From a virus, in the IMG/VR virus record IMGVR_UViG_3300006790_001296, positions 1 through 39,126 of that record: a stretch of DNA of 39,126 nucleotides, one strand, 5' to 3'. How positions within the stretch are numbered: the first letter of the stretch is position 1; each line of letters starts with the position of its first letter. Below the pieces are notes generated by a model, which saw only the letters and a list, made by a program, of their open reading frames with translations, had not been told where the DNA came from and made no database searches. Shown one piece after another: positions 1 through 39,126 of the stretch. A program made the translations under genes and the position numbers.

Positions 1-2
1 CT

Positions 3-62
3 GTCACTAAGGTTAAGATTGGGGCCGTGGAGAAGACAGTGACCAAGGAGGTGAAGAAGTAA
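3..62 (+). CDS. C-terminal end of a lysine-rich protein (truncated by window start)
   Basis: Only the last 19 codons are present. They read in frame to a TAA at 60-62 and end in a lysine/glutamate-rich tail (VEKTVTKEVKK). The stop overlaps the next gene's ATG as TAATG, the same coupling used throughout the window, which supports it as a real gene end. The function cannot be judged from this fragment. Its place just before a holin-like gene would fit a lysis-cassette member, but that is only position-based inference. Confidence 0.55.
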   Translation, partial: VTKVKIGAVEKTVTKEVKK

Positions 63-238
63 TGCTACGCTCAAAAACCACTTGGACAGCCATTACTGGT
101 GCGCTGGCCGGGATTGCCGGGTATTTCACTGGGGAGCTTGAGCTTGGTGCTGCCGCTAACGTGGTCATCACCAGTCTATTGGCCCTGTTCCTTAGGCACG
201 GAATCAAGAAGACCGAAAAAGCGGTAACAGGGGAGTGA
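62..238 (+). CDS. Small holin-like membrane protein
   Basis: This 58-residue ORF starts at the ATG of a TAATG junction and ends at TGA 236-238. It has a short polar N-terminus (MLRSKTTW), a hydrophobic stretch at about residues 8-22 (AITGALAGIAGYF), a short acidic turn (GELELG), a second hydrophobic stretch at about 30-45 (NVVITSLLALFL), and a basic tail (RHGIKKTEK). Two membrane segments with a charged C-terminus in under 70 residues is the layout of small phage holins, which permeabilise the inner membrane at lysis. The spanin-like pair directly downstream supports this reading. Another small membrane protein remains possible. The assignment rests on topology and context, not on a recognised family motif. 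Confidence 0.5.
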   Translation: MLRSKTTWTAITGALAGIAGYFTGELELGAAANVVITSLLALFLRHGIKKTEKAVTGE

Positions 239-244
239 ACCCAG

Positions 245-691
245 ATGGGGATTCTCAACTTAATAGCTTCAATTCTAAAGGCCGTCCCAATTCTGGGGCG
301 GCTTTTTGTGAGGTTTGCAGATGATAAGCGAGAGTTAAAGGCACAAGAACGGTATGAGGAAAAACTTAATCTTATTGATAGCGCTGTTGACAAGTATCAT
401 AGGGCAGGGGTGCACGACAGCGGTGAAGCACAACAACAGTCAGGAACTAATGCAGCACCCGCAGTTCCCAAGGGCAGCGTTTCACGCTCCCGAGTTCACA
501 AGGCAAGCGCTAAAAACGATAGTGGAACTGGAGTACCAGCTAGAAAGAAAAAAGTAGCCAAGAAGAAAGCTGTTAAGAAAAAAACAGCTAAAAGAAAGGT
601 ATCTAATGCCAAAGAAAAAAGACCCACGACTCGCCGCAGCGGGCGTAAGCGGATACAACAAGCCGAAAAGAACACCAAATCACAAAACTAA
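245..691 (+). CDS. Candidate inner-membrane spanin (Rz-like) with a lysine-rich tail
   Basis: 148 residues. A GGAG ribosome-binding site at 232-235 lies 9 bases before the ATG. Residues 3-22 form a hydrophobic or amphipathic anchor (ILNLIASILKAVPILGRLFV). A charged helical stretch follows (about 25-55), as in i-spanins, which are anchored in the inner membrane and reach across the periplasm by coiled coil. The C-terminal half is unusual: from about residue 98 it is a histone-like run of KKK/AKKK/KRK blocks ending in RRSGRKR. A lipoprotein ORF lies inside this gene in another frame (354-557), which is the Rz/Rz1 arrangement, and the next gene also overlaps its 3' end. The basic tail could instead mean a nucleic-acid-binding role. 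The spanin call depends mainly on the nested lipoprotein. Confidence 0.5.
   Translation: MGILNLIASILKAVPILGRLFVRFADDKRELKAQERYEEKLNLIDSAVDKYHRAGVHDSGEAQQQSGTNAAPAVPKGSVSRSRVHKASAKNDSGTGVPARKKKVAKKKAVKKKTAKRKVSNAKEKRPTTRRSGRKRIQQAEKNTKSQN
354..557 (+). CDS. Candidate outer-membrane spanin (Rz1-like lipoprotein), nested in the Rz-like gene
   Basis: 67 residues, entirely inside the 245-691 gene in a different forward frame. The N-terminus has the form of a lipoprotein signal: basic start (MRK), a hydrophobic core (LILLIALLTSII), then GQGC with cysteine at residue 20. The mature part is short and polar. Rz1-type o-spanins are small lipoproteins that pair with an i-spanin to fuse inner and outer membranes during lysis, and their genes are often embedded out of frame in the Rz gene. 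The lipobox is imperfect, since the -3 position is G rather than L/V/I. No clear Shine-Dalgarno sequence lies directly ahead of the ATG, so translation may be coupled to the host frame. Confidence 0.5.
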   Translation: MRKNLILLIALLTSIIGQGCTTAVKHNNSQELMQHPQFPRAAFHAPEFTRQALKTIVELEYQLERKK

Positions 692-893
692 ATCTCACGT
701 TGTTGTTGCTAAAGATGGCGACAAAATTAAAACGATAAGATTTGGCCAGCAAGGTGTCAGTGGCGCTGGGAAAAACCCTACTAGCGCTAAGGATAAAGCT
801 CGTAAAAAATCCTATTACGCACGCCACAATGCTCAGGATTCAAGCCCTGATAAAATGAGTGCGAGGTATTGGTCGCATAAGGTTAAATGGTGA
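606..893 (+). CDS. Small basic phage protein (resembles the DUF6321 family)
   Basis: 95 residues. It starts within the 3' end of the Rz-like gene in another frame, with AAAGG upstream as ribosome-binding site. The N-terminus (MPKKKDPRLAAAGVSGYNK) and the C-terminus (KMSARYWSHKVKW) match my memory of a small conserved protein common in marine phage genomes, usually annotated DUF6321. Its biochemical function is not known to me. The protein is strongly basic and has no signal peptide or membrane segment. It ends in TGATG, sharing bases with the next small gene, so the two are probably translated together. Recognition of the family is from memory and should be checked by profile search. Confidence 0.7.
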   Translation: MPKKKDPRLAAAGVSGYNKPKRTPNHKTKSHVVVAKDGDKIKTIRFGQQGVSGAGKNPTSAKDKARKKSYYARHNAQDSSPDKMSARYWSHKVKW

Positions 894-1033: not shown

Positions 1034-1054
1034 TCCTTTTAAATCTCCAAGGAT
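1033..1054. terminator. Weak hairpin between convergent genes
   Basis: ATCCTT (1033-1038) and AAGGAT (1049-1054) can pair as a 6-bp stem around a 10-base loop, between the rightward 46-aa gene and the leftward terminase gene. Read leftward, a run of six T follows about 5 bases beyond the stem, so it might terminate terminase transcripts. Read rightward there is no T-tract. The stem is AT-rich and short, so this is tentative. Confidence 0.25.
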
Positions 1055-2526
1055 CAGATTGGGACGGAAGTTAACGAAAGTCTTCCGCTTTTCGGATCGT
1101 TGGAAATTTCTAGGTCGGCTGACATCTCCCCGATCAGGGCATAGCTCAGGCTGTCAAAGCTGTGCTTATTGTCATCATTGACAACGTACTGCCCAACACT
1201 CTTCCCCTTCCTTAAAAACTTCATCATATCAATCGTTCGGTGGCAGTGAGCACTAATATGCAACCTGTTGAGCATTAGTAAATCCTTTATCAGCTTAACC
1301 CTTTGCCTGACTGATCCAGCAAACTTTGGTGCGCCAATCATGTTGATTTTCCCATCGCTGGCAGCGGCTACCACCCTGTGATCGTATGTGTTTCCTGATG
1401 CCCTAAAGCGATTCATGGCAGACATGTCAGACCAATGCGTCCACCTAACTGGCCTTCCTATGTGACTCTCTAGCTGCTCGATCCGATCCATTGCTTCGCC
1501 TGTAAAATCCTCAAGGGATACATCTGCGTGGAGTACAACGAGCTCATCCAGTACCGCCCATCGAACACCATTCATCGTGCGAACCTTCTCCATGATGTGA
1601 AAGGCGTGGTTTCTGTCCCCTAAATCCCAGCCCCCAATTAATTCCGTGCAGTTATCGGAAGGCAATATCACCTCCCATTCATCCTCTATGGGGGAGTCTG
1701 TGTTGCCAACCACATGCAGTGGCGTCTTAAACACCTTTCCAAAATGGGAATCGGTACTACTGGCTGTCCACTTGCCCAGTACATAACGATCATATAACTC
1801 AGGGTCTGGTCTGAATGTGGCGATCAAATCCTTCCTGTCGTGGTCAGAAAGGTAAGGATTGTCGTGAATCATGGATTCAATGATCTGGAACTGCTCGGCG
1901 TACTCAGGGTCTGGGTGATCCTCTTGGAACGGCTCCTCGTACCAGAGCTTATAAATCCAGCTAGTTGTTCCTTCTTCTGCTGGGTTGGTATCCCCGATCC
2001 ACTGATGTCTGTGGTAATCCAGCCCGGGTAAACGAAGCTGCCCCTTGCTGATCGAGAACACGCATGAGTCTTTGAAGTTCGATAGCTCTGAGAAAAATAT
2101 CATGCTAAATCGGGTTCCCTTGATCTTCTCCTCGATGTCGTGATCTACGTCTAGCGAGTGGAGTTGGATTTCTGTTTCGCCTCCATGCATGTTGGCGACT
2201 TTCATGTAGTTCATCTTGGTCACCCCATCTACTTTGGGTTTAACCGTAATCTCAAATCCGTCCAGATTCTCCTCCCATTCTGGGATAATCAGGTCAGTCA
2301 GGTCAGACCAGACTCCAGATTTAGCGTTGCGAATAGTTTTACAGAAGACGCCGACGCGCCCTCCTTTTGTTTCCCAGCAATGGCGAACCAGCCTATGTAG
2401 GACACCGATTGTCTTACTGGAATAACGCGGCCCAGAAACAAGCAGGTATCGTTTGGAGCAGTTAAATATTTCCAACTGCTTTGGGCTGATCGAGGGATAC
2501 CATGCGCCACTAGCATCAAGAGGCAT
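1054..2526 (-). CDS. terL: Terminase large subunit (DNA-packaging ATPase/nuclease)
   Basis: 490 residues, usual length for the family. The N-terminal ATPase has a Walker A-type loop SGPRYSSKT (31-39), a Walker B-type strand MIFFSE (142-147) with the catalytic glutamate, and a coupling-motif candidate GDTNP (178-182). The C-terminal RNase H-like nuclease shows acidic residues in the expected order: D301 in GGWDLGD, D367 in HWSDMSA, and D451/D458 in NDDNKHSFDS. The enzyme pumps DNA into the prohead at the portal and cuts the concatemer. It is encoded leftward while the portal, scaffold and capsid genes run rightward from 32 bp away. No strong Shine-Dalgarno sequence precedes the ATG. A small terminase subunit was not recognised nearby. 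Confidence 0.92.
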   Translation of the reverse strand: MPLDASGAWYPSISPKQLEIFNCSKRYLLVSGPRYSSKTIGVLHRLVRHCWETKGGRVGVFCKTIRNAKSGVWSDLTDLIIPEWEENLDGFEITVKPKVDGVTKMNYMKVANMHGGETEIQLHSLDVDHDIEEKIKGTRFSMIFFSELSNFKDSCVFSISKGQLRLPGLDYHRHQWIGDTNPAEEGTTSWIYKLWYEEPFQEDHPDPEYAEQFQIIESMIHDNPYLSDHDRKDLIATFRPDPELYDRYVLGKWTASSTDSHFGKVFKTPLHVVGNTDSPIEDEWEVILPSDNCTELIGGWDLGDRNHAFHIMEKVRTMNGVRWAVLDELVVLHADVSLEDFTGEAMDRIEQLESHIGRPVRWTHWSDMSAMNRFRASGNTYDHRVVAAASDGKINMIGAPKFAGSVRQRVKLIKDLLMLNRLHISAHCHRTIDMMKFLRKGKSVGQYVVNDDNKHSFDSLSYALIGEMSADLEISNDPKSGRLSLTSVPI

Positions 2527-2558
2527 ATCCGTGCTAATTTAACGGATTGGAGGCATTT

Positions 2559-2798
2559 ATGGCAAATGAGATCACAATAGACCTAACAGACCCTGTTCTC
2601 GCTGAGGCTTTAGCTGAGTGCGACCCGGGTGAAACACACACGATCACGATGGATATAAACGTGACAGAGAAGACCACCCAACTTGTTGGAACGGTTACTC
2701 CAGAATCGGTTGAGAAGTATGGGGAAGAGGAAGAGGTTGTTGAGGAAGCCCCTGCTGCGCCAACTGAAACTCCCGCTGCCGTTGAGGCGGTCATGTAA
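2559..2798 (+). CDS. Small acidic protein, first gene of the head operon
   Basis: 79 residues from the ATG at 2559, preferred over an in-frame TTG at 2547 because GGAGG (2549-2553) sits 5 bases before the ATG. The N-terminal half is probably a beta-rich domain (EITIDLTDPVLAEALAE, then alternating hydrophobic strands). The C-terminus is a glutamate/alanine/proline tail, likely disordered. No family recognised. Position between terminase and portal is where a small terminase subunit is often found, but no DNA-binding helix-turn-helix is visible, so I do not make that call. It overlaps the next gene as TAATG. Confidence 0.65.
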   Translation: MANEITIDLTDPVLAEALAECDPGETHTITMDINVTEKTTQLVGTVTPESVEKYGEEEEVVEEAPAAPTETPAAVEAVM

Positions 2799-3049
2799 TG
2801 CCGAAGCGGAAGCCTGAGGTTACCTACAACAAGGACGGCACGGTCAACTTGACCCTGCGCTTTTACAACCTGAGGCCAAAGAAGGGCAGAAACTTTAGGA
2901 GCGTAGAATACCACGATGCAGTTTTAAAAAATTCTGATCTAAACGCCTATGTGAAGATTTGGCGAAGGATGCCAAGGGCAAGGATCAGGAAGATTATGGT
3001 AGAATACGCCAAGAATCGCATGATTCAAAACAGTCCAGTTATTATATGA
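2798..3049 (+). CDS. Small basic protein of unknown function
   Basis: 83 residues starting at the ATG of a TAATG junction. It is rich in lysine and arginine throughout (MPKRKPEVTYNKDGTVNLTL at the start, then RRMPRARIRKIMVEYAKNR), with a probable C-terminal helix. It could bind nucleic acid or the portal, but I recognise no family. Its stop overlaps the portal's likely start as ATGA (3046-3049), so the two are translationally coupled. Confidence 0.6.
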   Translation: MPKRKPEVTYNKDGTVNLTLRFYNLRPKKGRNFRSVEYHDAVLKNSDLNAYVKIWRRMPRARIRKIMVEYAKNRMIQNSPVII

Positions 3050-5328
3050 TTGATCTGAATGTTCTAAATAGTCGGGGAGTAAACACGGACAAACTAAAGT
3101 CCGTGTTCAATCGTGATGATCACTCTGTCCCTGACAAGGCCGTGCCTCTGCTGGACAGAATCCGAGACAGGATAGATGACGGGCTTCAGTGGTGCATTAA
3201 GAACCACAAAATATATCACGCACTTGATCTGGCTTGGGAAACTCCTTTCCGTCAGGTGAGCTCTACTCTTGCCTATTCACTCATCAACAAAGACTTGGAT
3301 GAGAAGACTGTAAAGGAAGCTGCTCGCGATTGGGGGCTGACAGGCATGATAGATGAAGTGACTGACAGCAAGGGAACATCCCGCAACCTCAACCTGCCGA
3401 TTTTCTTTAATGTATTTGTTCCAATAGTTCGCGCTTATGTGACCATTCGTTGGGCCAGAATCTACAACGACAGAAGGCAATATCCTCTGTTCAAGTATGA
3501 GATGGCACAGAACACAACGACCAACAAACTTCGCAGTGACATCATTACGGATCGAATCCAGACGATGGCGAACAACTATGGGTATTCTGAAACCTTGAAG
3601 CAGGGCATCTTTCACATGCTGCACTACGGCTCCTGCATGATGTTCCCGCAGGAGGAGTGGCATTCGGAGAAGCAGATACTTAGGAATGATGTAGGAGCAG
3701 AGGAGGAGAAGTATGTGAGAGAGGGACTGCGATACCATCTGCCTCATCCTTCAAGAATCTTTTTCGATCAGGCGCATAGGACAACTACTTTCAACACTGA
3801 TAGTGGCTGCGAGTTTGCAGGCTATTGGAGGATCATGCGCTACGGCGATATTCGCAGGAATGAAAAGTTCTGGAACGTGGAGAAAATAAGGTACGGCAGG
3901 ACTACTGACATGCTTGCGAGTGCCAAGACCTACCTTGAGCTCGTCTCTCCTTGCACAATGGAATTTCCGACATCAAGAAATGCTTATGGGATGCTGGATA
4001 GGGAAGAGGAGATAGATAGATATTACAATAAATCTGACGATGACAAAGCTGTACTCATTACTGAATACTTTGAAAAGATCATTCCATCTGAGTATGGCCT
4101 TGGTGATTATGATCATCCTGTATGGTTTCGTTTTTGCTTGGCTAATGATGATACTATTCTTTATGCCGCTCCACTACCTTATTGCCCGGTTGTTTACTAC
4201 GCATACGACCCGCACGAAGGAAGATCAATTAATGCCTCACTAAGTTTAGAGATTGTTCCGTTCCAAGATCAGATTGGGAATCTACTATCCCAGTACCTGT
4301 TGTCAGTTAAGCAAAACCTAGCCAACATTACATTTGTTGACTCTGATCAGGTTCCCAAGTCGATGATCGACCAGCTTCAAAACTGGGGGGAGAAAATATT
4401 TAGGGGTTTGAACTTCATGCCCTTTAGTTCGCGCCAGAACAAATTCGCTCAGTCTGATGTTAGAGAGGCATTCAATTCAGTTCGGTTCTCCACGCTCGAC
4501 ACCAATGGGATCGTCGGGGCGATGCGACAAGTCATCGACATGCTGGAGAGGTTACTCGTCATATCCGCACAGGAAGTTGCTCAGGTCGCAAGCCACGAAC
4601 AGACGGCTGAGGAAGTCCGAACCGTTGCTTCAACAACATCCACAAGGCTTGCTTTCACGGCAACTGGCGTCGATGACGCAATCAACGCATGGAAGGAACA
4701 ACTTTATCGCGGCCTTATGGCTTACGGTGAAGATGAAATTTACGCAAATATTAACTCCCAGTACACGGTTGACTCCCTTCATGCCCTTGGATTCACCGTT
4801 ACAGAGAAAGACGAGGATCGTTCTGGCTCTGTCAAGGTACGAGGACAAAAGAGCGCACTTGCTCTTGAAAGCATTGGTTCTTACCGCGACAGCTTGGATC
4901 GGGTTTCTGACAATGCAATGGCTGCTGCACTAACTCAGTTCTATCAGATAGTGGCCAACGACCCAGAGATTAGGCAAAGCGTTGGCACTGATCAGATATT
5001 GGATGTGATTAATCGAGTCGGCCAGATGCTTGGGTTGCCAAGAGATTTCAAACTTCAAAAGATAAGTGAAGACCAAGGGCCAGAGCAGCAGGCCGAACAA
5101 ATGGCTGCCATAGCGGAGGAAATAAAAGGCTCCGTATTGCAGGAGGTTGGACAGGCGTTAGAGCCTATAGCCCAAAACACTCAACAGAACTCAAGCGCAA
5201 TAGAACAACTGGTTCAGTTGATTAGTCAGGCTCCACAGCCACCTGCTGAATCGCAGTATGATAACATTAACCAAGCTCCCAGCGGAGTCCCAGAAGGTAC
5301 TCCAAATCCAGAACTGGTTGAGGCATAA
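3046..5328 (+). CDS. Portal protein (head-to-tail connector)
   Basis: About 760 residues from the ATG at 3046. A longer version from a TTG at 2959 is possible, but it would overlap the previous gene by 91 bp and lacks a ribosome-binding site, while the ATGA coupling at 3046 matches neighbouring junctions. Large size, position right after terminase and before scaffold and capsid, and portal-like helical segments (LKQGIFHMLHYGSCMMFP; LLSQYLLSVKQNLAN) support the call. The C-terminus is glutamine-rich coiled coil (about 680-745), which could form the barrel or crown. Portals form a dodecameric ring through which terminase pumps DNA. No signature motif was used, so identity rests on context and overall character. 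Confidence 0.78.
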   Translation: MIDLNVLNSRGVNTDKLKSVFNRDDHSVPDKAVPLLDRIRDRIDDGLQWCIKNHKIYHALDLAWETPFRQVSSTLAYSLINKDLDEKTVKEAARDWGLTGMIDEVTDSKGTSRNLNLPIFFNVFVPIVRAYVTIRWARIYNDRRQYPLFKYEMAQNTTTNKLRSDIITDRIQTMANNYGYSETLKQGIFHMLHYGSCMMFPQEEWHSEKQILRNDVGAEEEKYVREGLRYHLPHPSRIFFDQAHRTTTFNTDSGCEFAGYWRIMRYGDIRRNEKFWNVEKIRYGRTTDMLASAKTYLELVSPCTMEFPTSRNAYGMLDREEEIDRYYNKSDDDKAVLITEYFEKIIPSEYGLGDYDHPVWFRFCLANDDTILYAAPLPYCPVVYYAYDPHEGRSINASLSLEIVPFQDQIGNLLSQYLLSVKQNLANITFVDSDQVPKSMIDQLQNWGEKIFRGLNFMPFSSRQNKFAQSDVREAFNSVRFSTLDTNGIVGAMRQVIDMLERLLVISAQEVAQVASHEQTAEEVRTVASTTSTRLAFTATGVDDAINAWKEQLYRGLMAYGEDEIYANINSQYTVDSLHALGFTVTEKDEDRSGSVKVRGQKSALALESIGSYRDSLDRVSDNAMAAALTQFYQIVANDPEIRQSVGTDQILDVINRVGQMLGLPRDFKLQKISEDQGPEQQAEQMAAIAEEIKGSVLQEVGQALEPIAQNTQQNSSAIEQLVQLISQAPQPPAESQYDNINQAPSGVPEGTPNPELVEA

Positions 5329-5566
5329 GGAGTGTTCAGACCTCAAATCCCTTCTACTGGGAGACATAGCTTCTCTACAGGAGAAGGCTTCTCGCGTTTT
5401 AATACAAGCAAACGAAGATGAGCGTAAGATTGCAGATGCTAGGGCAGCGGCATCTGATGCTGAAGACTTAGTTAAGTTTGTTGATATGCTGGATAAGATT
5501 CAGTCTGGAGACTATGAATTTCAAAGAGTCAAAATAGGAGTTTCGGAGAAAATACTATGGAAGTAG
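5258..5566 (+). CDS. Small helical protein overlapping the portal end (start uncertain)
   Basis: The frame is open from an ATG at 5258 (102 aa) or a TTG at 5318 (82 aa). The second start would give only 11 bp overlap with the portal and looks more natural, but neither has a good ribosome-binding site. The product is mostly one long charged helix (SLQEKASRVLIQANEDERKI, ADARAAASDAEDLVKFVDML), suggesting a coiled coil. Placed between portal and scaffold, it may be an assembly chaperone or small scaffold component; this is inference only. Its last codons overlap the start of the scaffold-like gene. Confidence 0.5.
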   Translation: MITLTKLPAESQKVLQIQNWLRHKECSDLKSLLLGDIASLQEKASRVLIQANEDERKIADARAAASDAEDLVKFVDMLDKIQSGDYEFQRVKIGVSEKILWK

Positions 5567-7014
5567 CAGACCCAGTACAGGAACAGGTTGACATCCAAGC
5601 GCCCCCGGGAGTGCAGATGGTCAGCGCCGCAGACTTAGGCAAGCCCCTTATTGATCAAGTACAGGAGCAGGCAAGTCAGGAGGAACCCGAGCAGCAACAG
5701 GAGGAGACTCCTCCCGAGGAACCGAAGGAGGAAATCAAGGATGCCGCTTCTAGTTTGATGGAGCGCCTTGGGTACAAGAAACCCAGCGAGGAGCCGCCAG
5801 CGGAACCTGAACCTGAACCCGAGCCTGTTGAAGAAAAGGCCGAAGAGGAGCCAGTGGCTGAGGAAAAGCCAAAGCGAAAGAGAGGCAGGCCACGGAAGGA
5901 TGAGTCTATCACGGCCAACGAGATCAAGGACATCATCAGGGAGACAGCTTCATCGGTAGCTGCTGCCAATTCCCCTAAGGATACTCCACAACAAGTCACG
6001 AGTTATGATGAGATAGAGGCACTCAACAAGGATGACTTGGAGATATTTGCCTCACTTGAGGAGAAAGACCCCAAATACGCAGGCATCAGGGACAAGTACA
6101 AAAAGTATCTAGGTTCCCTGAGCGGTTACAAAGAGGCATGGGCCAAGGATAATCCCGGTCTTACCTTTAACCCGAACGATGCAGAGCATGAGGACTGGGT
6201 TAACTCCAACATGCCAGAGTTTGATGACAGGGATTTCGATGATGCGAGGATCGAGACAAGGGCCAAGCGCCTGATAAAGGATCAGGAGCAGAAGTACATG
6301 TCTGAACTGGATTCAGTTCGATCTGAGGTGGCAGAAGCCAACATGAAAACCGAGCTACAGGATGGGGCCAACAACTCTATTGCTGAGGTTGTCAGCAACA
6401 TTGATGAGTCCTACTTGAAAATGATTCAAGAGAATGGCGGCGAGGCTTTGGAAGAGGCTGACCCAATCGCTCATCATGTCCTCAATGAGACATTATCTCG
6501 CAGCGAGAACATGCTTTATGAGCTTGAGAAACTGTCCCACCCAAGCAGGAAGTTTAAACTGAATGCAGCAAACGAGACGCACAAGGAGTTGCTTCAGTTT
6601 GCTATGGGCAAGGAGAAGGAGATAGCAGCCCTCTCTCCATCGGATCAAATACACGAAGGGAAGCGCTTTGCTACTACTGAGCAGTACGCGAAGATGAGTG
6701 ATGCCCAGCGGCAAAACCATTGGAGGTTGGAGCCATCTCATATTAAGACGATGTATGTGAGCCAAATAAGCCAAGAAGCGAAGAATCGCATACAATCCGA
6801 AAGGGAAAGGTTTGAACAATATATTTCTAAAAAATCCTCTGGGACAAAAAATTCCCAGTCGGGTTCAGTGAGAGGTATTATTAGCCCTGCAAAACGCACG
6901 AAACCTCAGCCTCCAGCAACAAGCGGAGAAGCTATTTCGTCAACAAGCACTGGTGACCCCGGGAAGAACAATCTCGGTGATCTACCAACTTTGAAAAAGT
7001 TTCTATGGGGATGA
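5557..7014 (+). CDS. Scaffold-like head assembly protein with an AT-hook
   Basis: 485 residues. A GGAG ribosome-binding site lies upstream of the ATG. The first 105 residues are extremely acidic and proline-rich (EEPEQQQEETPPEEPKEE; PEPEPEPEPVEEK) and probably disordered. Residues 105-114 are PKRKRGRPRK, a textbook AT-hook core (RGRPRK) that binds the minor groove of AT-rich DNA. The rest is highly charged helix/coiled coil, with a serine/threonine/proline-rich tail. Position directly before the major capsid gene and the acidic helical character are typical of podovirus scaffold proteins, which fill the prohead and leave before packaging. The AT-hook is not a usual scaffold feature. Confidence 0.7.
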   Translation: MEVADPVQEQVDIQAPPGVQMVSAADLGKPLIDQVQEQASQEEPEQQQEETPPEEPKEEIKDAASSLMERLGYKKPSEEPPAEPEPEPEPVEEKAEEEPVAEEKPKRKRGRPRKDESITANEIKDIIRETASSVAAANSPKDTPQQVTSYDEIEALNKDDLEIFASLEEKDPKYAGIRDKYKKYLGSLSGYKEAWAKDNPGLTFNPNDAEHEDWVNSNMPEFDDRDFDDARIETRAKRLIKDQEQKYMSELDSVRSEVAEANMKTELQDGANNSIAEVVSNIDESYLKMIQENGGEALEEADPIAHHVLNETLSRSENMLYELEKLSHPSRKFKLNAANETHKELLQFAMGKEKEIAALSPSDQIHEGKRFATTEQYAKMSDAQRQNHWRLEPSHIKTMYVSQISQEAKNRIQSERERFEQYISKKSSGTKNSQSGSVRGIISPAKRTKPQPPATSGEAISSTSTGDPGKNNLGDLPTLKKFLWG

Positions 7015-7038
7015 TACAATCCCAACCTTTAACTCTTT

Positions 7039-7045
7039 AGGGAGG
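7039..7045 (+). promoter_or_regulatory. Strong ribosome-binding site of the capsid gene
   Basis: AGGGAGG lies 8 bases before the ATG at 7054, one of the best Shine-Dalgarno matches in the window. This fits a gene whose product is needed in hundreds of copies per virion. Confidence 0.8.
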
Positions 7046-7053
7046 AAAATATT

Positions 7054-9045: not shown

Positions 9046-9090
9046 TACTATTTCCTAATACTGCTACTGTTATCTAGGAATAAGCATCAG

Positions 9091-9121
9091 CGGGGAGGTT
9101 GTCACGACCTCCCCGTTTTTT
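9091..9121 (+). terminator. Rho-independent terminator after the capsid gene
   Basis: CGGGGAGGT (9091-9099) pairs perfectly with ACCTCCCCG (9107-9115) around a 7-base loop and is followed by six T (9116-9121). This is the clearest intrinsic terminator in the window. It separates the head genes from the neck/tail block, whose own promoter candidate overlaps it. Confidence 0.92.
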
Positions 9122-9129
9122 GTTATACT
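9099..9129 (+). promoter_or_regulatory. Candidate sigma70-type promoter for the neck/tail operon
   Basis: TTGTCA (9099-9104) resembles a -35 box and TATACT (9124-9129) matches the -10 consensus at 5 of 6 positions, with a 19-bp spacer. The ATG of the next gene is only 10 bases after the -10 box and has no Shine-Dalgarno sequence, which would fit a leaderless or nearly leaderless transcript. The -35 overlaps the terminator hairpin. The spacer is longer than ideal, so this needs transcript mapping. Confidence 0.35.
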
Positions 9130-9139
9130 ACTGGCTGCT

Positions 9140-9553
9140 ATGGCGAAGCCGAAAACGCACTACTGGAAGAAGAATAATCCTCGTAATCCTGTACCATTAA
9201 AAAATGGGGGATACCTTGAGTTAGAAATAATAGCTCAAAATGAAGGGGTGGCCCAAGTTACCGATCCCGAGATACAGGAAATACTTATTGGCATGCTTGG
9301 AACCTATGGGCTTGAGCAAATAGATAAAGCCACCTACGAGGATTTAAAAAAAAACAGGTCATCAACCTCCTTAAAGCCTCAAGTGCGCGAGGAAATTGGG
9401 GGAATCAGTCTGGCGCAAGACCCAACATTCAGTCCTCAAACAATCGAGGTGGATGCAACTGTGCAAAGCGATGAGCCTGCCAGCCCTAATCAGGCTTTAC
9501 CTTTGCCAGAAGATTACAAGCCGACAGCCTCTAAACGATTCAAACCTAAATGA
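9140..9553 (+). CDS. Hypothetical protein, first gene of the neck/tail operon
   Basis: 137 residues. The N-terminal half is a compact basic-then-mixed domain (MAKPKTHYWKKNNPRNPVPL, then ELEIIAQNEGVAQVTDPEIQ). The C-terminal half is proline/serine-rich and probably extended. No family recognised. Position right after the capsid gene would suit a head-decoration or head-completion protein, but nothing in the sequence proves it. No ribosome-binding site precedes the ATG, while a -10-like TATACT lies 10 bases upstream. It overlaps the next gene as ATGA (9550-9553). Confidence 0.65.
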   Translation: MAKPKTHYWKKNNPRNPVPLKNGGYLELEIIAQNEGVAQVTDPEIQEILIGMLGTYGLEQIDKATYEDLKKNRSSTSLKPQVREEIGGISLAQDPTFSPQTIEVDATVQSDEPASPNQALPLPEDYKPTASKRFKPK

Positions 9554-15989: not shown

Positions 15990-15993
15990 TTAA

Positions 15994-21290: not shown

Positions 21291-21299
21291 GCAGCCGTT

Positions 21300-33200: not shown

Positions 33201-35406
33201 TAGCGTGCAATTTCAACTGACGAAACAGTACGAAAACCTTGGCCAATACATCAGAGATTTTGAGGAGGTTTATGGATCAGCAGGGGGATCAGATTACTCT
33301 GTTGATTCATTACCAAACCTTGCTCAACGCGCTTGGGGTATAACGGTTGGCAGCTTGCTTGCTAATCCTATGACCACCATCCGCAACTACACCGATACTC
33401 TTATCAACGGGGCTCTTGCGGTTCAGATGATCCAAGGCGGCACGGGCATCATGCCGATAATTCATACCATCCTTCGATCTCTGATGGTTTCTGTAATAAA
33501 AGGCGGCGGTTCATTTATAGTCTCGGGCGCAAAGATAGCCACATACAAGCTGCCTATCGTTGGAACATGGAAAGCAGTAAAGAGAGGGACGGGCATCGAC
33601 GGCCATCCCCCTTCATTGTACGGCGCTATCCGTGCGCTCCTTACACCTACAATCGAGGAGCTTGCCGAGACGCTGCCAAGCAGAACGAGAGAGTACGAAA
33701 TGCTGAGGCGTCAGGGCTTGGGCATGCCGACAACTCCCGAGCAGACATCCATTAACTTCGATGAGTTGCTGGAAACTGGCGGCAGAGTTCTTTCGCCAAT
33801 GCAGGCAGAGGAATCATCCAAGTTAAACCCAGCCAAGGCTTTGTTCTGGCGAGGGCTAGGCAAGGGTATTGGTGCATGGGAAGCTGGCTTAAATGTTTTG
33901 TTGCGTCCATTGATGCAACGCATGGGCGATGTAGCTGCCAACAACTTGCTGGCTAACCTAGCTGCACATGTTGGCCACACCATGCAGCGTAAAGCCAAGT
34001 TAGCTTACGCAAATAGAATCAAGCAGGGCATTAACCTTGATGAAACTTTAGAGCCAGAGGAGTTACTTGGTAACTTCATGGGTTTACTAAAGCAGAACGG
34101 CACAACGTACAACGAGGCACTTACATTTTTATCGAAAGCTGGAATCACTAACCTTGAGCAGCAAGTCAAAGACTACTGGCAAAGGCTGGCCTCTGCTCCC
34201 GATAAGGCTTCCCGTAATCAGGAGAAACTTTTTACTCAAAGCCAATTAGACCGCATGGCCGCTGTTCTGGTAATGAGCAACAACATTGCCACGCCGTCGA
34301 ACAGACCCTTGTGGATGAAAAAGAGCAGACTTAATTCAATTATGTTTGCCCTAACTGGGTGGAGTTTTAACCAGTTACAAAACTGGATGAAAGCTACAGC
34401 GGCAACAGGTGGTGAATCAGGAAGAGAGCAAGCCAAGCGCAGGGTGCAGATGCTGATGCTGATCTTGGCCCCAATCGCTTTTGGTATCCCAGACAACTGG
34501 ATTCTTGAGTGGTTAATGCGCGGGGTGGATGAAGGGCTTTATGGCCGCAGAAGAATAACAAGGCTGCCGAACGAGACAGCAGGATGGCAGCAGGATGGAA
34601 TCCAATGGGATGAAAGCAAGGCAGTGCTTAGCCTTGCCACTCAGTCCGTACCGCTGCTCGGCTCCAGCTTAAATGCATATTGGAATGACCTCCCGGGTAG
34701 GGCGCAGCACACTCCCGCTGGCTTGGTGACGGGTCAAATCGGCGCTGCTGTTGACTTCTTTGTTAATGGCAAGTCAACAGGCAACTTAGAGCAGACTGGC
34801 ATTGCCGCCATCAATCGTTTGCTCCCAATCAGTCGAGCAGTAACCTACCGCGTCTCTAAGTGGCAGAAGGCTAAGACTAAGAACGACAATGCTCGTCGTG
34901 CAATTCGGGCAACATACTCAGATGCGAAAGCCATAAGGCCAATCACTGGTGGGGCTATGGGCTATGTGCCTGATGAGTTTACCCCACTCAAAGAAATGTG
35001 GGCTGCTGCTGTAGCTGATGGTGACTGGGCCGAGGCTCGCCGCTTGTATGATGAAGGAATAGATACTTATCGTTACGTCAGAGAGGAAGCTACTGGCAGA
35101 AAGATAAGCAGGGAGCAGGCAGAGAGAAACATGAAGTCATCTCTTTCTACGGCAAACCCTGTGGCAAAAGCATTGCAGTACAAACCTGATCGTAAAACAT
35201 TTTACGAAAACATAGCTCACGCTACTGAAAAGGATGCTGGCACAATCAGAAGCAACCTAAAAAACTGGGAAGAGGCTCATAGGATATTTGATCTAACTTC
35301 AATCTTTGCATCAGGAAGCAGCAAGTCGAAGCGCCCTGTAGTCCGTCGAAGTATTAACCGCATTAACAGGAGAACCTCAGGGCGTAGTGCACTGAGGCAG
35401 CGGTGA
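24232..35406 (+). CDS. Giant multidomain virion protein (polyvalent-protein-like, 3724 aa)
   Basis: The gene takes 11.2 kb. Visible parts in order: glycine/alanine-rich hydrophobic segments at about 124-145, 255-280 and 335-353, suited to membrane insertion; an E-rich helical section (437-600); a ParB/sulfiredoxin-like domain (about 605-690) with the core YIVNGNHRYRAA; a small strand-rich domain (about 1333-1423); a helix LLEEIAHFTAKLL (1879-1883 = EEIAH) that looks like a zincin helix lacking its first histidine, with ADEFYANAM about 97 residues later; long coiled coils; LLANPMTTIRN at about 3044, a motif I associate with giant phage ejection proteins; hydrophobic helices near 3050-3100 and 3404-3420; and a basic C-terminus. 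Likely packaged and injected with DNA to protect or prepare it. Domain calls are by eye. Confidence 0.78.
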   Translation: MPIKVHKFAPRQKLPTGGGLFHKYRRVFDDDEYQKLVAEQGQTIAELGEDTIETVGANLYEGTKATPEAMYQTGTELYEFGAELFGAGEDTMYDARQARRAAQELSAQTKQELVGGLPGGGISEFGYELGSTATQEIPFMIGSAGVGTVAKKAGQKIVKNKIRQRLGQEALEAAPDTFVGKAVGKAIQDQTEKIGTRAAISSMAAIHGARSTSGTFGAATDKLHEDYSKALKAQNPDMPWQEIDRMAYEQARADAVAPAIASGVITAGLISAFGATGVERFFANPTKSRPVFQEFLSAFGLEATEEGADQFLQGVLAKHSYDPSRSWDSIMAETAHAGLLGGTIGVKLGGTKILAERGVDFYQNRPITKRLAAWAERRAGARVKDKEGLAKWIEDHTDTSGTEAKEAATAIASATDQIKARLNKESQGASEREAKSEAAQEQRPTEEELDQREEQGEDVTVERDVAEELNQHKARGRAAAEDKVENPEEIASQIEEEDSIEAAEKFVEGYNEVAIKEETEQEEFRSEDLDQDYFDTFPGAEEEVTTEQSAVTREEFAQAVNQAKETARTTGRIEIGSALDEVVEEISPDEALKEAVNNITTQAESDDSSFKITKKTYSPEQLKKVDSFQETRDEKVGRLSEEEITEPVLIFREDDGSEYIVNGNHRYRAAVKAGKNLDVVVYEKDSSLPSGVIQTEGFSKTDPNQGDFFGLMLAPAAEQIATKDETEQADVENDSLDLFDQAQQQVANEDRDVFGPPVEEAQRELDLTELEEGEERGRVDVPQRPLGPPAPDPQRELVAGEETEPDFTTESLEAKEAPKDQFVLSIERPSKSRLSHYKKADGYHADKHISLGKNYSDNGREAIVKHNQNTKSIDIGFINEQGRFIPTHRLKDYAQVKESNQKRGNSQQPRAYFIPKQLLSNESLANLDVWELAPRSPIQAKFSRAQAAQVGESEMARRIVSHVSDPALRETLQLMLANDQLGVESVNALILAAKRYKPEGARGVNPRTLSDAGNVEELAKQLEQSISLLRDKNLFSETIRKGDAGFTEEAVNSLVAGLEARTDLTVDDLKLVDKGRADEEFEAADFDVAERGFRASVQQSNENEKSESGLAPLLFKTSTESKGKTSNRIEVGLVNPERIPLAELEQSLNEALGSEGIKFEINKTGEPQVSVSGDAELLNDDAIENIRAVIAYVNMKAKKAPVNEKYAKAASKKQEIDRAESGRRVQKKERGVYTPGKSEEGKFAGLRRPDKLTANDKKILDKGGAVAEYWVSDSKKTKSDENQLGLKGQSFRKGGRTYKKQSLLDPKVLIQMADRRISLYRRTKAQPDRMLQLGGKTIFSKEDNRKKPKITKVKIEKGQLEEGVERYSIDGRQVFIIKDKRDGRYYYTIGSRPSTDNIGVAMDATVKTPLQAKNFIVGQVNNLNKGLKLAPLSLLIGKARDAYGQETQQAVGIEAVERGQTFAATPTSSQAVEEGRKETPSVDVRIVEADEEGKAEDVETRGRWRSKVQPSEPMPQVEGVERQDPNEPASYKTGREMPKGFVLERGILIPAAKQFDNDFRASVGLPPVTKQGGRYALPSSPLELTEEQRDPQSVPVVGQRYTEIMEGSRDEGTPLEERLAQTDLPPAAAESEIDLSEEEFNAVKAHTDSFNGGVTGFINSIVDEVFDKNPVLFAQLQKLALTAQKAATKFVADARKRAEEMDVSTLEGRTQRKKLLDRAAILEAGMPYDFKSVLNEQGRRILISWAKSVSPNNHKAVLEYAEDIFRAAETNKKLRAKAKKSDSENLQVPTDLPTAKGAVALKELIARPDNGLTEEQRLAALRFLDQIAPELLENLSLNISAELNAEGDTEVAYEGEFNSLENLINLASDTNTDENTLLEEIAHFTAKLLPSDLRSQAIKLHKKALGDEIAKNEKALSRAQGDDRVRILSNLNVLRAIQSRGQLTSEEFRNILPRESEVGSDTFERIIEDTYHLANADEFYANAMVTRAGESEFSRARQFLNSILDAIAAAFGNTNAQVNRFVSNAKRSLATPGKANKRMGGMLMRGNVNAKSMKVLTNPGKLAGATATDLQRADQARAMGNEADAEKYKQRADDRVAQAGGVVSLFERVIRKVVPTLDTGGRVAQLLKFRDLGYVTNLVDSLPSSSEYKQTIQRFMEDGKPELAQATALYAYQFILEMENRAKALRLKADEKLKRINTDTFKDNVRRAIENEKKDNRTAIINSEIVKSLQNALVDATSTGPTLNMLAQMIGSVENLEAAVSTVPELNKAIATLTNILSKEEAGIELFNRPDISDQFHDSGEIVRLSNEIFEFVKNLGVRVEDENLWRTASALFVANRSIRTNSIIESMPFIEAKKNSTAKIKEILDAINSGDEATRRQKIAEIFQEVVDLSTEEGKAKYVTQQRMGSVVKEIRDAAIYEEAAAAAEAVVNDPEITEFRRLTALQAKVDDRPELVENHFYEDFSNGSIYIPKPPNKLNPEGDNVVKINVISGGKGNENIKKANEAAKDIQEWLEENMEDGKPTSPYWEYYWNTLQQLHTTFINDLIWNTPTNQRTLLRNTFFGVLGHMVDNIPTRGAKIARRFIDKHDMYYTWFDDWRARHKAKWTNLLLLAAKSRKGRFADDVKFFKLRESKEAQKIRGVAEWEKNVGRYLRDSWQEGGMNYGVGEVLPNGEIVTKEDMALLEYEDMMTDEAYQFNGKIAEQDESTQPFRVTDAAVKGRSIKRLALRRGKAMLPRRFSGDGRSFIDQYQLQVNAGKTGKALFDEIFAGEEGTQALISFISDRNPEWVTASGIDASINEGIYSMVSEEIRDGSLLETYNETELTAQLIASRLAEAAGVGVETGTAEVPSIKEQLMQEFAPVLDNLAGKFDKENNNKNPFLQISTTEGISSLTEGRRDKIAPSFFYTYGFNNEQQFQSFVSQGQLPAAQGVISALKSAQTEIGQLINTSQLDALAKKYMNQLGKKGKKADRYSRKVQKAIAKELGIKIVSDNSVQFQLTKQYENLGQYIRDFEEVYGSAGGSDYSVDSLPNLAQRAWGITVGSLLANPMTTIRNYTDTLINGALAVQMIQGGTGIMPIIHTILRSLMVSVIKGGGSFIVSGAKIATYKLPIVGTWKAVKRGTGIDGHPPSLYGAIRALLTPTIEELAETLPSRTREYEMLRRQGLGMPTTPEQTSINFDELLETGGRVLSPMQAEESSKLNPAKALFWRGLGKGIGAWEAGLNVLLRPLMQRMGDVAANNLLANLAAHVGHTMQRKAKLAYANRIKQGINLDETLEPEELLGNFMGLLKQNGTTYNEALTFLSKAGITNLEQQVKDYWQRLASAPDKASRNQEKLFTQSQLDRMAAVLVMSNNIATPSNRPLWMKKSRLNSIMFALTGWSFNQLQNWMKATAATGGESGREQAKRRVQMLMLILAPIAFGIPDNWILEWLMRGVDEGLYGRRRITRLPNETAGWQQDGIQWDESKAVLSLATQSVPLLGSSLNAYWNDLPGRAQHTPAGLVTGQIGAAVDFFVNGKSTGNLEQTGIAAINRLLPISRAVTYRVSKWQKAKTKNDNARRAIRATYSDAKAIRPITGGAMGYVPDEFTPLKEMWAAAVADGDWAEARRLYDEGIDTYRYVREEATGRKISREQAERNMKSSLSTANPVAKALQYKPDRKTFYENIAHATEKDAGTIRSNLKNWEEAHRIFDLTSIFASGSSKSKRPVVRRSINRINRRTSGRSALRQR

Positions 35407-36291
35407 AGTCACCGACCCCCCCAAGGTTAACTTGGCAATCTCATTCTCATCTCGATCAATGTACCGCTGAAGCATTGCCGTCGATGTCCACCCTATGATC
35501 TCCACTATTGTGGGCAGGTTGATGCCAGCCGCAATCATGTTGGTGGCAGCCCCGTGCCTGAGGCAGTGAAACGTCAGCTTACTGTCGAGCCCTGCATCAT
35601 TAACCAATGCCTTAAACTCAGAGGTCACACTGTTACTGTAGTAGCGCTTGACAGCTAACGGGAAGTAATACTGCTCGCCCGGGGTAACACTCTTCAAGGC
35701 GGCAGCCACATCTGAATGCAGCGGTAACTCGATCTCCTTCCTGCTCTGCTTCTGGGGAGTGAAAGTAAATTTGTTGCGGCTCCAGTCCACGCATGTTGCA
35801 GAGAACTCAGCGCAGTCCTGTATTCGCATACCATAGTGGTGGCCAAGCATGATCATCGGGGGCCAGTATGTTCTGGTTTCATCCTTTCCAGCAGATACCA
35901 GCAGCTTCTTAACCTCGTCCTTGGTGAAGCCACGAACGTGTGCGAGCTCAGGTGGTAGCTTGGGTGTCAGCTTCGTAGGGTTCTTAATGAAGTAGTCCAT
36001 GTTGATCCCCCACTCAAAGAAGACGCTGAGCCTGCCAACGTAGTAGTTGATGGTGCAGCCCTTCCTCCTCTTTGTTTTGTTGGATACCCTGAGGTGGGCG
36101 ACCCACGAGTTGACCGTCTGGTTAGCCAGAGGGTCTAGCTTCCGCTCGTAGCAGAAGTTTGAATAGCTCTCAAGCGTTCCCTGATAAGCCAGTATGGTGT
36201 TCTTTGATGCAGTGATGGCCTTCCAGTTAACGAACTCGTAAACCAGAGATGGAAGGTTTCTCCCCTTTATGTCTTTGTCTCTATTCGGCAT
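35377..36291 (-). CDS. Tyrosine recombinase/integrase (first of two)
   Basis: 304 residues. An N-terminal SAM-like core-binding domain (about 15-110, NTILAYQGTLESYSNFCYER) precedes the catalytic domain. Catalytic residues by position: R156 (GMRIQD), K181 (PQKQSRKE), H242 and R245 (HCLRHG), W268 in place of the second histidine (IIGWTS) and nucleophile Y277 (LQRYID). All are present, so the enzyme should be active. It would catalyse site-specific recombination such as phage integration. The 3' end overlaps the end of the giant gene by 30 bp on the opposite strand. It is downstream of, and overlaps by 25 bp, a helix-turn-helix-like gene read in the same direction. Confidence 0.93.
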   Translation of the reverse strand: MPNRDKDIKGRNLPSLVYEFVNWKAITASKNTILAYQGTLESYSNFCYERKLDPLANQTVNSWVAHLRVSNKTKRRKGCTINYYVGRLSVFFEWGINMDYFIKNPTKLTPKLPPELAHVRGFTKDEVKKLLVSAGKDETRTYWPPMIMLGHHYGMRIQDCAEFSATCVDWSRNKFTFTPQKQSRKEIELPLHSDVAAALKSVTPGEQYYFPLAVKRYYSNSVTSEFKALVNDAGLDSKLTFHCLRHGAATNMIAAGINLPTIVEIIGWTSTAMLQRYIDRDENEIAKLTLGGSVTSPLPQCTTP

Positions 36292-36810: not shown

Positions 36811-38043
36811 ATGGCACACCTTTACAAGACTCCCGACTCTCCGTTTCACTACATCAGTTACAACGATTCTACTGGCAAGCGCCGTAGGGTTGCCACCCGC
36901 TTTTACCACGACAGAAAAGCATGGGAGAAAGCTAACGCTCGACGATGGCATTACCCGAAAAAAGTTCAACTTGATGTGAAGTGGAAGCGGGAGCAAACGA
37001 ATGCTGAACTGTTCCGACTTGAAGCTGCCGCAAATGAAAAGAGGTCTTCGCTTAGCGGGGGCAAGGCAGCCCACTGGGATGAGTGGGTTCCTAATTTCAT
37101 CAGGAGGCGCTGGCCTCACAAGGATACCTACAATGATACGATTCGTATGTGGATGTTTGTCTACGGCGAGGTGTTCATCCCGAAAGAAATCGAACACCCT
37201 GCCCAACTTACTGTTGAGGCATGGGATATTTGCATTGATGAGATTCAAAGACTCAAGCCGAACATAGGAATCAACACTCTTAACCAGACCTACGTCGGGA
37301 AGTTGAGGATGATTATGCATGAGGCTGTTAAACGGGAATACTGTTCAATCAATCCACTGGTAGACTACCGTGTCATGGGGAAAAAGAGGGGGAAAATAAA
37401 GACCCCATTTGATGACCATGAATTAGATTTGATTTGGGCTGAGTTGAACGCCCCTCTTCGGACTGGCACAAAGCATGTTAGCAGGCTGCCTTGGCCCAGA
37501 TGGATGACCATCTCTTTTGCCTTGGGCATTTATCATGGTGCAAGAATCAAGGCGACGAGGATGCACGCTAAGCAAATCAATTTGAAGACAGGCTATGTGG
37601 TTTTTAAGGAGAAGGGATATGCTAACCACGAGGTTCCTATCTGCCCGTTAGCAGTCCCTTACTTTGAAGAGATAATTAAAAACGGGTCGAACGCCTTGGA
37701 TGCCTCTGAGAATTCCATGTCAGGTAATTTCAGCACCATGTTTAAAGCAATCGGACTTGATCATCACAGCTTCCATGACACTAGGCGAACTTGCATAACC
37801 CGCATGGCGTTGGCTGGTGTCCCTGAGCAGCTTGCTCGACGGTACGTCAATCATGCATCCAGATTGGTTCACGACGTTTACATTAAGATTCAGCCCGATG
37901 AGATTATTAAGGTTGCTCAGGGGCTGAAGGCTGCTTTTGGGAATACGCATCTGCCGCTCGGAAATCAGGGTTCTCTTCCAGCCATTGAAGCAGGCGATCC
38001 AATCGGAAAATTCTTGCCCGAGAAATACCCATCCCCTTCTTGA
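36811..38043 (+). CDS. Tyrosine recombinase/integrase (second, divergent)
   Basis: 410 residues. The ATG is fixed by an in-frame TGA directly upstream. The N-terminus (about 1-55, SYNDSTGKRRRVATRFYHDR) looks like an arm-type DNA-binding domain, then a core-binding domain (about 85-195). Catalytic residues: R245 (HGARIKATR), a lysine in VFKEKG (266 or 268), H322 and R325 (FHDTRRT), H348 (VNHAS) and Y357 (HDVYIKI). The set is complete. It is longer than, and only distantly like, the 304-aa enzyme on the other strand. Its last 137 bp are also used on the opposite strand by an excisionase-like gene. It may be the main phage integrase, or the two enzymes may act at different sites. Confidence 0.93.
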   Translation: MAHLYKTPDSPFHYISYNDSTGKRRRVATRFYHDRKAWEKANARRWHYPKKVQLDVKWKREQTNAELFRLEAAANEKRSSLSGGKAAHWDEWVPNFIRRRWPHKDTYNDTIRMWMFVYGEVFIPKEIEHPAQLTVEAWDICIDEIQRLKPNIGINTLNQTYVGKLRMIMHEAVKREYCSINPLVDYRVMGKKRGKIKTPFDDHELDLIWAELNAPLRTGTKHVSRLPWPRWMTISFALGIYHGARIKATRMHAKQINLKTGYVVFKEKGYANHEVPICPLAVPYFEEIIKNGSNALDASENSMSGNFSTMFKAIGLDHHSFHDTRRTCITRMALAGVPEQLARRYVNHASRLVHDVYIKIQPDEIIKVAQGLKAAFGNTHLPLGNQGSLPAIEAGDPIGKFLPEKYPSPS

Positions 38044-38146
38044 GCGCAGCAATGTAGGACTTGCTGCACCCAATAATCTTGGCCGCTTCCTTGGTGTCAA
38101 CCCACATAGGTATGGTCACCGTTAATCGTTGATCACTCTCCATCAT
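37907..38146 (-). CDS. Excisionase-like helix-turn-helix protein
   Basis: 79 residues with a MerR/Xis-type winged helix: WVDTKEAAKIIGCSKSYI (about 15-32), a basic turn (ALKKGMGI), then RARIFRLDRLLQWLEENP (about 43-60). That order of helix, turn, helix, wing and last helix matches small phage excisionases and AlpA-like proteins, which bend DNA at att sites. It is convergent with the second integrase and overlaps its coding end by 137 bp. It begins in the overlap with a small basic gene (shared ATGA at 38143-38146). The tail is glutamine/proline-rich. Regulation of integrase direction is likely but inferred. Confidence 0.75.
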   Translation of the reverse strand: MMESDQRLTVTIPMWVDTKEAAKIIGCSKSYIAALKKGMGISRARIFRLDRLLQWLEENPDFRAADAYSQKQPSAPEQP

Positions 38147-38307
38147 TGCTTCTTCCTCTTCGGCTTCTGCCTGTTAGTTGATTTGGATTTGTTTGAGTTA
38201 GGGATACCTTGTTCTTCATACGCCCCAGTTCCCCAGTTTTTAGAACGATCTATTCTGAAGGCTGAAGAAGGCAAATTTTTACTCCGATTTTTTTTTAGCT
38301 TACCCAT
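38143..38307 (-). CDS. Small basic protein (54 aa)
   Basis: 54 residues read leftward from the ATG at 38305-38307, with a GGAG ribosome-binding site about 8 bases upstream. The stop overlaps the excisionase-like gene's ATG. The protein is basic and polar (MGKLKKNRSKN at the start, RQKPKRKKQ at the end), with no membrane segment. The good ribosome-binding site and ATGA coupling support translation. Function unknown; possibly nucleic-acid binding. It is too short to attract attention in ordinary ORF searches. Confidence 0.55.
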   Translation of the reverse strand: MGKLKKNRSKNLPSSAFRIDRSKNWGTGAYEEQGIPNSNKSKSTNRQKPKRKKQ

Positions 38308-38337
38308 CGAATTTACTCCTGTCTTTTTTCTGCACTT

Positions 38338-38865
38338 TCACAACTGAACCTTCATGCCATGCTTCTCCATCTCCTTCTTGAAGGCTTCGATTGCCTCAGG
38401 GGGAGTCTCTTCTGCTTCCTGCTCAGGAAACATACTATCAATTATTTGGCAGATGTCATTGAGCTTCTCCTGTAATTCTTCGACATCGTTAACATCATCG
38501 GACTCGTGATCTAATTTAGCCGTGGCGTAAATATTGACCAGAGTAAATGCCTGCTTGCTGATGGCCATTGGCATAGGGTATTTCACCATAGTCCTAGCCA
38601 TCTTCACTATAGCTGACATGCGCTCCACAGGTATTGGGTTTGGGCTTCCCTCGTTAAATGCCTCAGCTACCTTATTCAAGTCCGTAACCCCATCCTTCTC
38701 TACCATGTGGGCACACACCTGCAACATCTTGAAGCAGGTGTCTATTGTCCACGGGTTAACGCTGTAATCTAGGTACTGAATTTCAACGGGGTCAGTCATT
38801 GGCTCTGAGCCATTGTTTTGATCCTGCTTGATCCCACTCTCTGCTATTTTGTTTTCTTCACTCAT
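38338..38865 (-). CDS. Unidentified acidic protein (175 aa)
   Basis: The first 35 residues are polar and probably disordered (KIAESGIKQDQNNGSEPMTD). Residues 40-160 are predicted by pattern to be helical (TIDTCFKMLQVCAHMVEKDG; VERMSAIVKMARTMVKYPMP; VEELQEKLNDICQIIDSMFP). The C-terminus is charged helix (EAIEAFKKEMEKHGMKVQL). No catalytic motif, signal peptide or family was recognised. It overlaps the gene upstream by 8 bp and belongs to the same leftward unit. A 30-base gap separates it from the small basic gene. Confidence 0.65.
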   Translation of the reverse strand: MSEENKIAESGIKQDQNNGSEPMTDPVEIQYLDYSVNPWTIDTCFKMLQVCAHMVEKDGVTDLNKVAEAFNEGSPNPIPVERMSAIVKMARTMVKYPMPMAISKQAFTLVNIYATAKLDHESDDVNDVEELQEKLNDICQIIDSMFPEQEAEETPPEAIEAFKKEMEKHGMKVQL

Positions 38866-39126
38866 ACTTCTTTTTTAGTTTTGCGATATACTCTCCATGC
38901 TCTTTATCAGTAAGTTTTCCCATGCCGACAAATTTGCACCACTCATATCCCGGTACTTTATTTATCCAATCTGGAACAGTGCTTCCCGGTTCATATAATC
39001 GGTAATCCCATGATTTCGGATATGCTTGGTACATATCAGCCAACGCATCACCGATAAGGCACGGCTCGGCCTGAGCTCCATCTCTGACGGCGAGTTTCAA
39101 GGGGTCATCTACATTCGGCTGAGGCA
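38858..39126 (-). CDS. Unidentified protein, 5' end beyond the window
   Basis: The leftward frame is open from the window edge to a TGA at 38858-38860, about 88 codons. An internal TTG at 39100 is not needed as a start, since the frame continues upstream (PQPNVDDPLKLAVRDG). Visible text includes a cysteine (AQAEPCLIGDALADMYQAYP) and a tryptophan-rich part (KSWDYRLY; PDWINKVPGYEWCKF), ending in a lysine-rich helix (IAKLKKKYE). No family recognised. Its two Pro-Gly pairs use CCG, in line with the rest of the window. Confidence 0.55.
   Translation of the reverse strand, partial: PQPNVDDPLKLAVRDGAQAEPCLIGDALADMYQAYPKSWDYRLYEPGSTVPDWINKVPGYEWCKFVGMGKLTDKEHGEYIAKLKKKYE

Follow-up and report, generated by a model that had tools for sequence, protein, structure and literature searches.

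Recognition sites of about 45 type II restriction specificities are missing from the genome fragment of an uncultured phage

Genome content of the window

The window, that is, the whole stretch of DNA analysed here, comprises positions 1 to 39,126 of the IMG/VR virus record IMGVR_UViG_3300006790_001296 and represents a large part of the genome of an uncultured and apparently marine podovirus-like phage. The word CCWGG (CCAGG or CCTGG) is absent from it, as are the recognition sites of about 44 other type II restriction specificities, and these missing words, in the window and in its relatives, are the subject of this report. The principal genes are collected in Table 1. A search of IMG/VR with the terminase identified 31, then 38 loci at 82-100% identity, which we refer to as the clade; analysis over the full length of relatives measuring between 27 and 71 kb gave a set of eight records that consists of the window and seven large relatives (G-numbers). 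Because several clade loci share sample numbers with relatives of the marine pelagiphage HTVC010P (e.g. 3300025099, 3300030376, 3300037585), the clade is probably marine.

Table 1 Coordinates of the main genes in the window.
Feature	Position	Strand	Basis and occurrence
Terminase large subunit	1054..2526	-	Pfam Terminase_3 (2.8e-7); PHROG 2 terminase (7.9e-26); served to define the clade
789-amino-acid protein, probable portal	2959..5328	+	By position; homologues in 7/7 large relatives
663-amino-acid protein, probable major capsid protein	7054..9045	+	By position; in 12/13 relatives at 56-97% identity
Calcineurin-like phosphoesterase domain and von Willebrand A domain proteins	9550-11316, 11316-13670		Structural region; conserved across the clade
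3,724-amino-acid giant protein	24232..35406	+	Avoided sites absent here too
Tyrosine recombinase, clade-conserved	35377..36291	-	Pfam Phage_integrase (7.5e-24); homologues in G002, G004, G005, G006, G007
Second tyrosine recombinase	36811..38043	+	Pfam Phage_integrase (5.2e-9)

Neither PHROG nor Pfam yielded an above-threshold family for the giant protein, whose sole match is to ParB_N below threshold; its counterparts in the relatives have about 3,200-4,400 residues, and it is possibly a multi-domain virion protein that is injected. Its gene sits directly upstream of the clade-conserved tyrosine recombinase, close to which, on the opposite strand, lies a second tyrosine recombinase. The latter had no counterpart among the listed relatives and seems particular to the window; it had no match when searched against plasmids, and its two matches among phages, mycobacteriophage integrases at 28%, are uninformative. 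A simple motif search, which a divergent enzyme could escape, found no convincing N6/N4 or C5 DNA methyltransferase motif in the open reading frames of the eight genomes.

CCWGG is absent from the window

Direct counting returned 0 CCAGG and 0 CCTGG across all 39,126 bases, in agreement with the initial annotation, which had been made by reading the letters alone. A maximal-order Markov model predicts ~81 CCWGG sites. We also compared the count with a null in which synonymous codons were shuffled 300 times over 23 gene segments (12,430 codons) with the proteins and the pooled codon use preserved; these shuffles contained 76.1 ± 6.8 sites and never fewer than 53, so that the observed count is nowhere near expectation. 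The initial annotation was thus right that many sites should occur by chance, but its figure of roughly 60 was low. The absence extends alike over the head, tail and recombinase genes, as had been proposed, and over the giant-protein gene.

The coding of Pro-Gly pairs indicates how the sites were lost. None of the 34 pairs in the gene set uses CCA or CCT for proline (CCC in 13, CCG in 21), although these two codons account for 69% of the prolines encoded elsewhere (354/513). Loss of Pro-Gly at the protein level was considered as a cause and rejected, as the window holds 35 pairs against 41.6 expected; with the dipeptide hardly depleted, the proteins were therefore retained and the DNA recoded. 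Both the avoidance of CCA and CCT before glycine and the conclusion drawn from it in the initial annotation, that synonymous selection against CCWGG and not mutation was responsible, are borne out.

CCWGG is one of many missing words

The window lacks 40 of the 64 six-base palindromes, including AAGCTT, CTGCAG, CAGCTG, GGATCC, CCATGG, GATATC, CTCGAG, TCCGGA, and GGCGCC; the codon-shuffle null gives 0.4 absent palindromes, with a maximum of 2 in 300 shuffles. Summed over all six-base palindromes, 220 copies were observed and 504 ± 22 expected, and 20 palindromes were retained at three or more copies. GTTAAC, TGATCA, TGGCCA, and AGCGCT are among the sites that the window keeps. Degenerate sites are missing throughout the window as well, with GGWCC at 0/37 overall (observed/expected by codon shuffle in the coding set: GGWCC, 0/36; RGATCY, 0/42; GGYRCC, 0/31; YACGTR, 0/19; RCCGGY, 0/26; WCCGGW, 0/27; RGGNCCY, 0/18), as are the asymmetric words GGTCTC (0/13), CACGTC (0/8), GAAGAGC (0/8), and GAGCTG (0/26), counted on both strands.

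Among the strand-merged six-mers, 67 are absent despite an expectation of at least 4.5 (Poisson expects 0.1). Thirty of these are palindromes outside CCGG contexts, and the remainder mostly contain CCWGG, GGWCC or CCGG, or fill out degenerate type II sites: AGATCC joins AGATCT and GGATCC to give RGATCY, GGCACC joins GGTACC and GGCGCC to give GGYRCC, and CACGTA joins CACGTG and TACGTA to give YACGTR. Only five other asymmetric words are among the 67, namely GGTCTC, CACGTC, GAGCTG, GACGAC, and CGGACG. GAGCTG/CAGCTC is missing along with CAGCTG, whereas GAGCTC is kept (13/9) and AAGCTG is enriched; this holds window-wide and in the relative G001. To our knowledge, the resulting pattern SAGCTG matches no commonly known type II site.

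When we took the REBASE sites shipped with Biopython as the list of restriction sites and scored a site as depleted at 15% of expectation or less, 43 of 142 palindromic and 6 of 396 asymmetric sites were depleted, compared with 8 of 435 reversed decoys, most of which are contained in true sites. Removal of redundancy leaves about 45 eliminated specificities, with 585 copies expected and 2 observed; six shuffled genomes had no depleted site at an expectation of at least 5. CCWGG (0/76), RGATCY, GGWCC, GGYRCC, and others also qualify as eliminated by the measure of Rusinov et al. 2018 (observed/expected < 0.1 at an expectation > 15), with the expectation here taken from the codon shuffle and not from their Burge statistic.

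The avoided words resemble type II recognition sites in form

Contiguous palindromes stand at an observed/expected ratio of 0.37 in the window, whereas palindromes interrupted by gaps of 2-12 bases total about 0.9-1.1; avoidance at a gap of one base is mostly confined to words of the CCNGG/GGNCC type, with the addition of GCTNAGC-type words in the relatives. Avoidance is thus limited to contiguous sites and sites with a single interrupting base, a form expected of the targets of type II enzymes and not of hairpins. Type II sites interrupted by five bases look depleted only in G004 (L042-L045), with 0/6 for GCCN5GGC, 2/15 for GCAN5TGC, and 1/12 for CCTN5AGG.

One palindrome, CCCGGG, is in surplus, with 30 sites in the window (from 2023 to 35678, spanning 2023..35683) and 29 in the coding set for 3.5 expected. 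CCGG occurs in the window only as CCCGGG, CCCGGT or GCCGGG. The surplus is probably a by-product, the leftover encoding of C- and G-rich words once their neighbours were forbidden: with CCWGG and most CCGG contexts excluded, CCCGGG and CCCGGT would be left as the near-sole encodings, for example of Pro-Gly.

Missing words are switched on and off between lineages

The eight records together contain 6 CCWGG sites where about 832 are expected, and the 21 clade loci of at least 8 kb contain 3 where 687 are expected, making CCWGG the clade's most uniformly missing frequent word; the long shared history suggested for this depletion holds within the clade. Other words toggle. AAGCTT is missing from the window (0/20) and from G001 (0/24) but stands near expectation in G002 (26/30), G004 (52/56), and G005 (59/54); GGWCC is at 0 in all eight records except G002 (39/108); and CCCGGG occurs in the window and in its relatives G001 and G002 and is at 0 in the other five relatives. 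Across 404 word-genome pairs the observed/expected ratio is bimodal, with 177 pairs under 0.05 and a further mode close to 1.

Distant relatives, with a capsid identity of 29-38%, mostly show much weaker avoidance and keep CCWGG (490/535), so no structural need imposes its absence. In two of these, L099 and L100, the avoided palindromes differ in part from those of the clade, and CCWGG stands at 21/27 and 10/43, respectively, which suggests an independent gain of multi-site avoidance. Within the clade, some relatives (L042 at 5239-8851, G004) carry in a row an AAA ATPase gene, a gene of unknown function, and a gene for a DUF2201 metallopeptidase-VWA protein, a module that is absent from the window fragment.

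Selection against the missing words is still acting

The window and G001 are 97.3% identical over 14.7 kb (2.7% divergence) and differ by 328 single-base synonymous changes. With the forbidden set taken from the window alone, these changes created 3 forbidden words, compared with 25.6 ± 5.0 expected when the same changes are placed on random like codons. In the control, palindromes kept by the window, 6 were created and 6.5 expected. Selection against the forbidden words is therefore still acting.

Discussion

We consider it very probable that the lineage was selected against the sites of about 45 type II restriction specificities at once, and thus by many enzymes. The depletion, its site-specificity and match to known type II sites, the on/off pattern, and the present maintenance are direct observations; we infer that host restriction enzymes exert the selection, in a number that mirrors the pan-restriction repertoire of the hosts or a wide host range. 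A genome that enters an enzyme-bearing host would survive best without an unmethylated site, so that sites would disappear by synonymous substitution and new ones would be purged as they arise. The list would then be set by the union of the enzymes encountered in a range of hosts or strains, an EcoRII-like enzyme being one member, and lineages meeting different enzymes would have single words toggling between absence and expectation. Either a single host lineage rich in restriction systems or a large number of hosts may have set the list. A precedent for the protective value of missing sites comes from T7-like and N4-like phages, which resist EcoRI and EcoRV in this way, whereas T3(K12) carries ten EcoRV sites and undergoes heavy restriction (PMC8594841).

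Several observations weigh against this explanation. Two terminase scans of genome contigs, one with the single protein and one with an alignment, recovered no relative and hence no host, and the agent thus had to be inferred. The four-base sites GATC, GGCC, AGCT, and GCGC are retained although enzymes for them are common, which must be put down to the cost of eliminating such a large number of sites. Avoidance of a palindrome correlates with the number of REBASE enzymes that recognize it (rho 0.53), but the correlation is confounded with G+C content and disappears within classes of equal G+C. Finally, the tyrosine recombinase that is conserved in the clade is a hint of a temperate lifestyle, yet a published survey places site elimination chiefly among non-temperate phages (PMC6286503); because such strong elimination has been reported mainly for the latter, this recombinase may not be a classical integrase.

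The initial annotation had attributed the loss of CCWGG to one host enzyme of EcoRII specificity. The absence of the word from the window and its near-absence from the eight records are what such an enzyme would leave, but an enzyme specific for CCWGG cannot account for the loss of AAGCTT or GGTCTC, and the other specificities are equally gone; a single enzyme was too narrow a proposal, is refuted as a sufficient cause and, highly improbable on its own, remains as one component. Erosion of the sites by Dcm-type cytosine methylation at CCWGG followed by deamination is extremely unlikely. It had already been argued against, correctly as to the outcome but incompletely, since the deamination product CCAAG/CTTGG is in fact enriched 1.68-fold. 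CTAGG, the second product, shows no enrichment (0.92), and neighbours that deamination does not produce are enriched as well (CCSGG, 1.81; GCAGG/CCTGC, 1.64; CAAGG, 1.45; CCAGC, 1.45); moreover, counts of zero call for selection and not erosion, and some forty unrelated words were lost too.

Palindromes make up most of the avoided words, as they would under a general avoidance of palindromes or hairpins (through replication, packaging or cruciform formation), with which codon or oligonucleotide bias may be grouped. We regard this as a most improbable account: a gap of 2-12 bases leaves palindromes at about their expected numbers, 20 palindromes persist in at least three copies each and CCCGGG is even in surplus, words toggle between relatives, the asymmetric GGTCTC, CACGTC, and GAAGAGC are missing too, and the shuffle nulls preserve codon bias yet still expect the missing words. 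It is also very unlikely that the phage merely mirrors the composition of a restriction-rich host that avoids its own sites. Prokaryotic chromosomes avoid type II sites as well, according to one study (PMC4687349), but exact zeros for about 40 words, lineage-specific on/off states, and the shortfall of newly created sites relative to G001 argue for selection that acts on the phage itself.

Selection by many restriction enzymes has counterparts in known systems. Complete or near-complete site elimination occurs in about a tenth of viral genomes and concerns mainly orthodox type II systems (PMC6286503). T7-like phages (Autographiviridae) resemble the window in the near-absence of CCWGG (2/81 in T7; 196/4,435 over 76 T7-like loci), and T7 also lacks many six-base palindromes, albeit fewer (19/64 vs 40/64), but unlike the window it keeps GGWCC (54/80). 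Over 21 kb the T7-like contigs L253 and L254 exceed the window in palindrome loss (observed/expected about 0.10), and a breadth without precedent, which we had considered, was rejected after this T7-like control. The same two contigs form an on/off pair for GGWCC (60/66 in L253, 0/60 in L254). N4 (Schitoviridae) similarly lacks many palindromes (31/64 absent in 39 kb, with 7.9 expected by composition), and N4-like phages likewise encode a very large protein (about 3,500 amino acids), but N4 keeps CCWGG at 52/79. Pelagiphages of the HTVC010P group deplete six-base palindromes like the window (median observed/expected 0.34) but are A+T-rich and largely keep CCWGG (205/300) and GGWCC (248/201).

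The window is unrelated to Autographiviridae by sequence, its terminase matching only haloviruses at 25%; a search of 50,697 phage records gave no match to its capsid and portal candidates, and no cultured relative of the lineage was found. In broad-host-range plasmids, avoidance of six-base type II targets rises with host range, with no such correlation for four-base palindromes (PMC10359461); the retention of four-base sites by the window is in line with this pattern, but avoidance in the plasmids is a statistical shift, whereas about 45 specificities in the window are essentially at zero. Our literature search, which reached few subscription journals, returned no work on the clade or on a word list of this kind in phages that have not been cultured. 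The clade is a new, broad, clade-wide instance of a known way of evading restriction.

Tentatively, and with somewhat less than even confidence, we suggest that the forbidden words of each lineage may form a near-complete record of the type II repertoire of its (probably many) hosts, that the clade may be unusually wide-ranging with 40 or more specificities, and that on/off words may mark host-range shifts or the gain and loss of single systems. One missing word should not be equated with one host enzyme until the whole list has been checked. Selection by dozens of restriction enzymes is apparently readable word by word in this uncultured clade, with a built-in control in that a word which one lineage lacks occurs at its expected frequency in a related lineage. 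Restriction repertoires of unseen hosts could thus be deduced from phage DNA alone and gains and losses of single specificities could be dated, and it becomes possible to ask whether the breadth of avoidance measures the breadth of host range.

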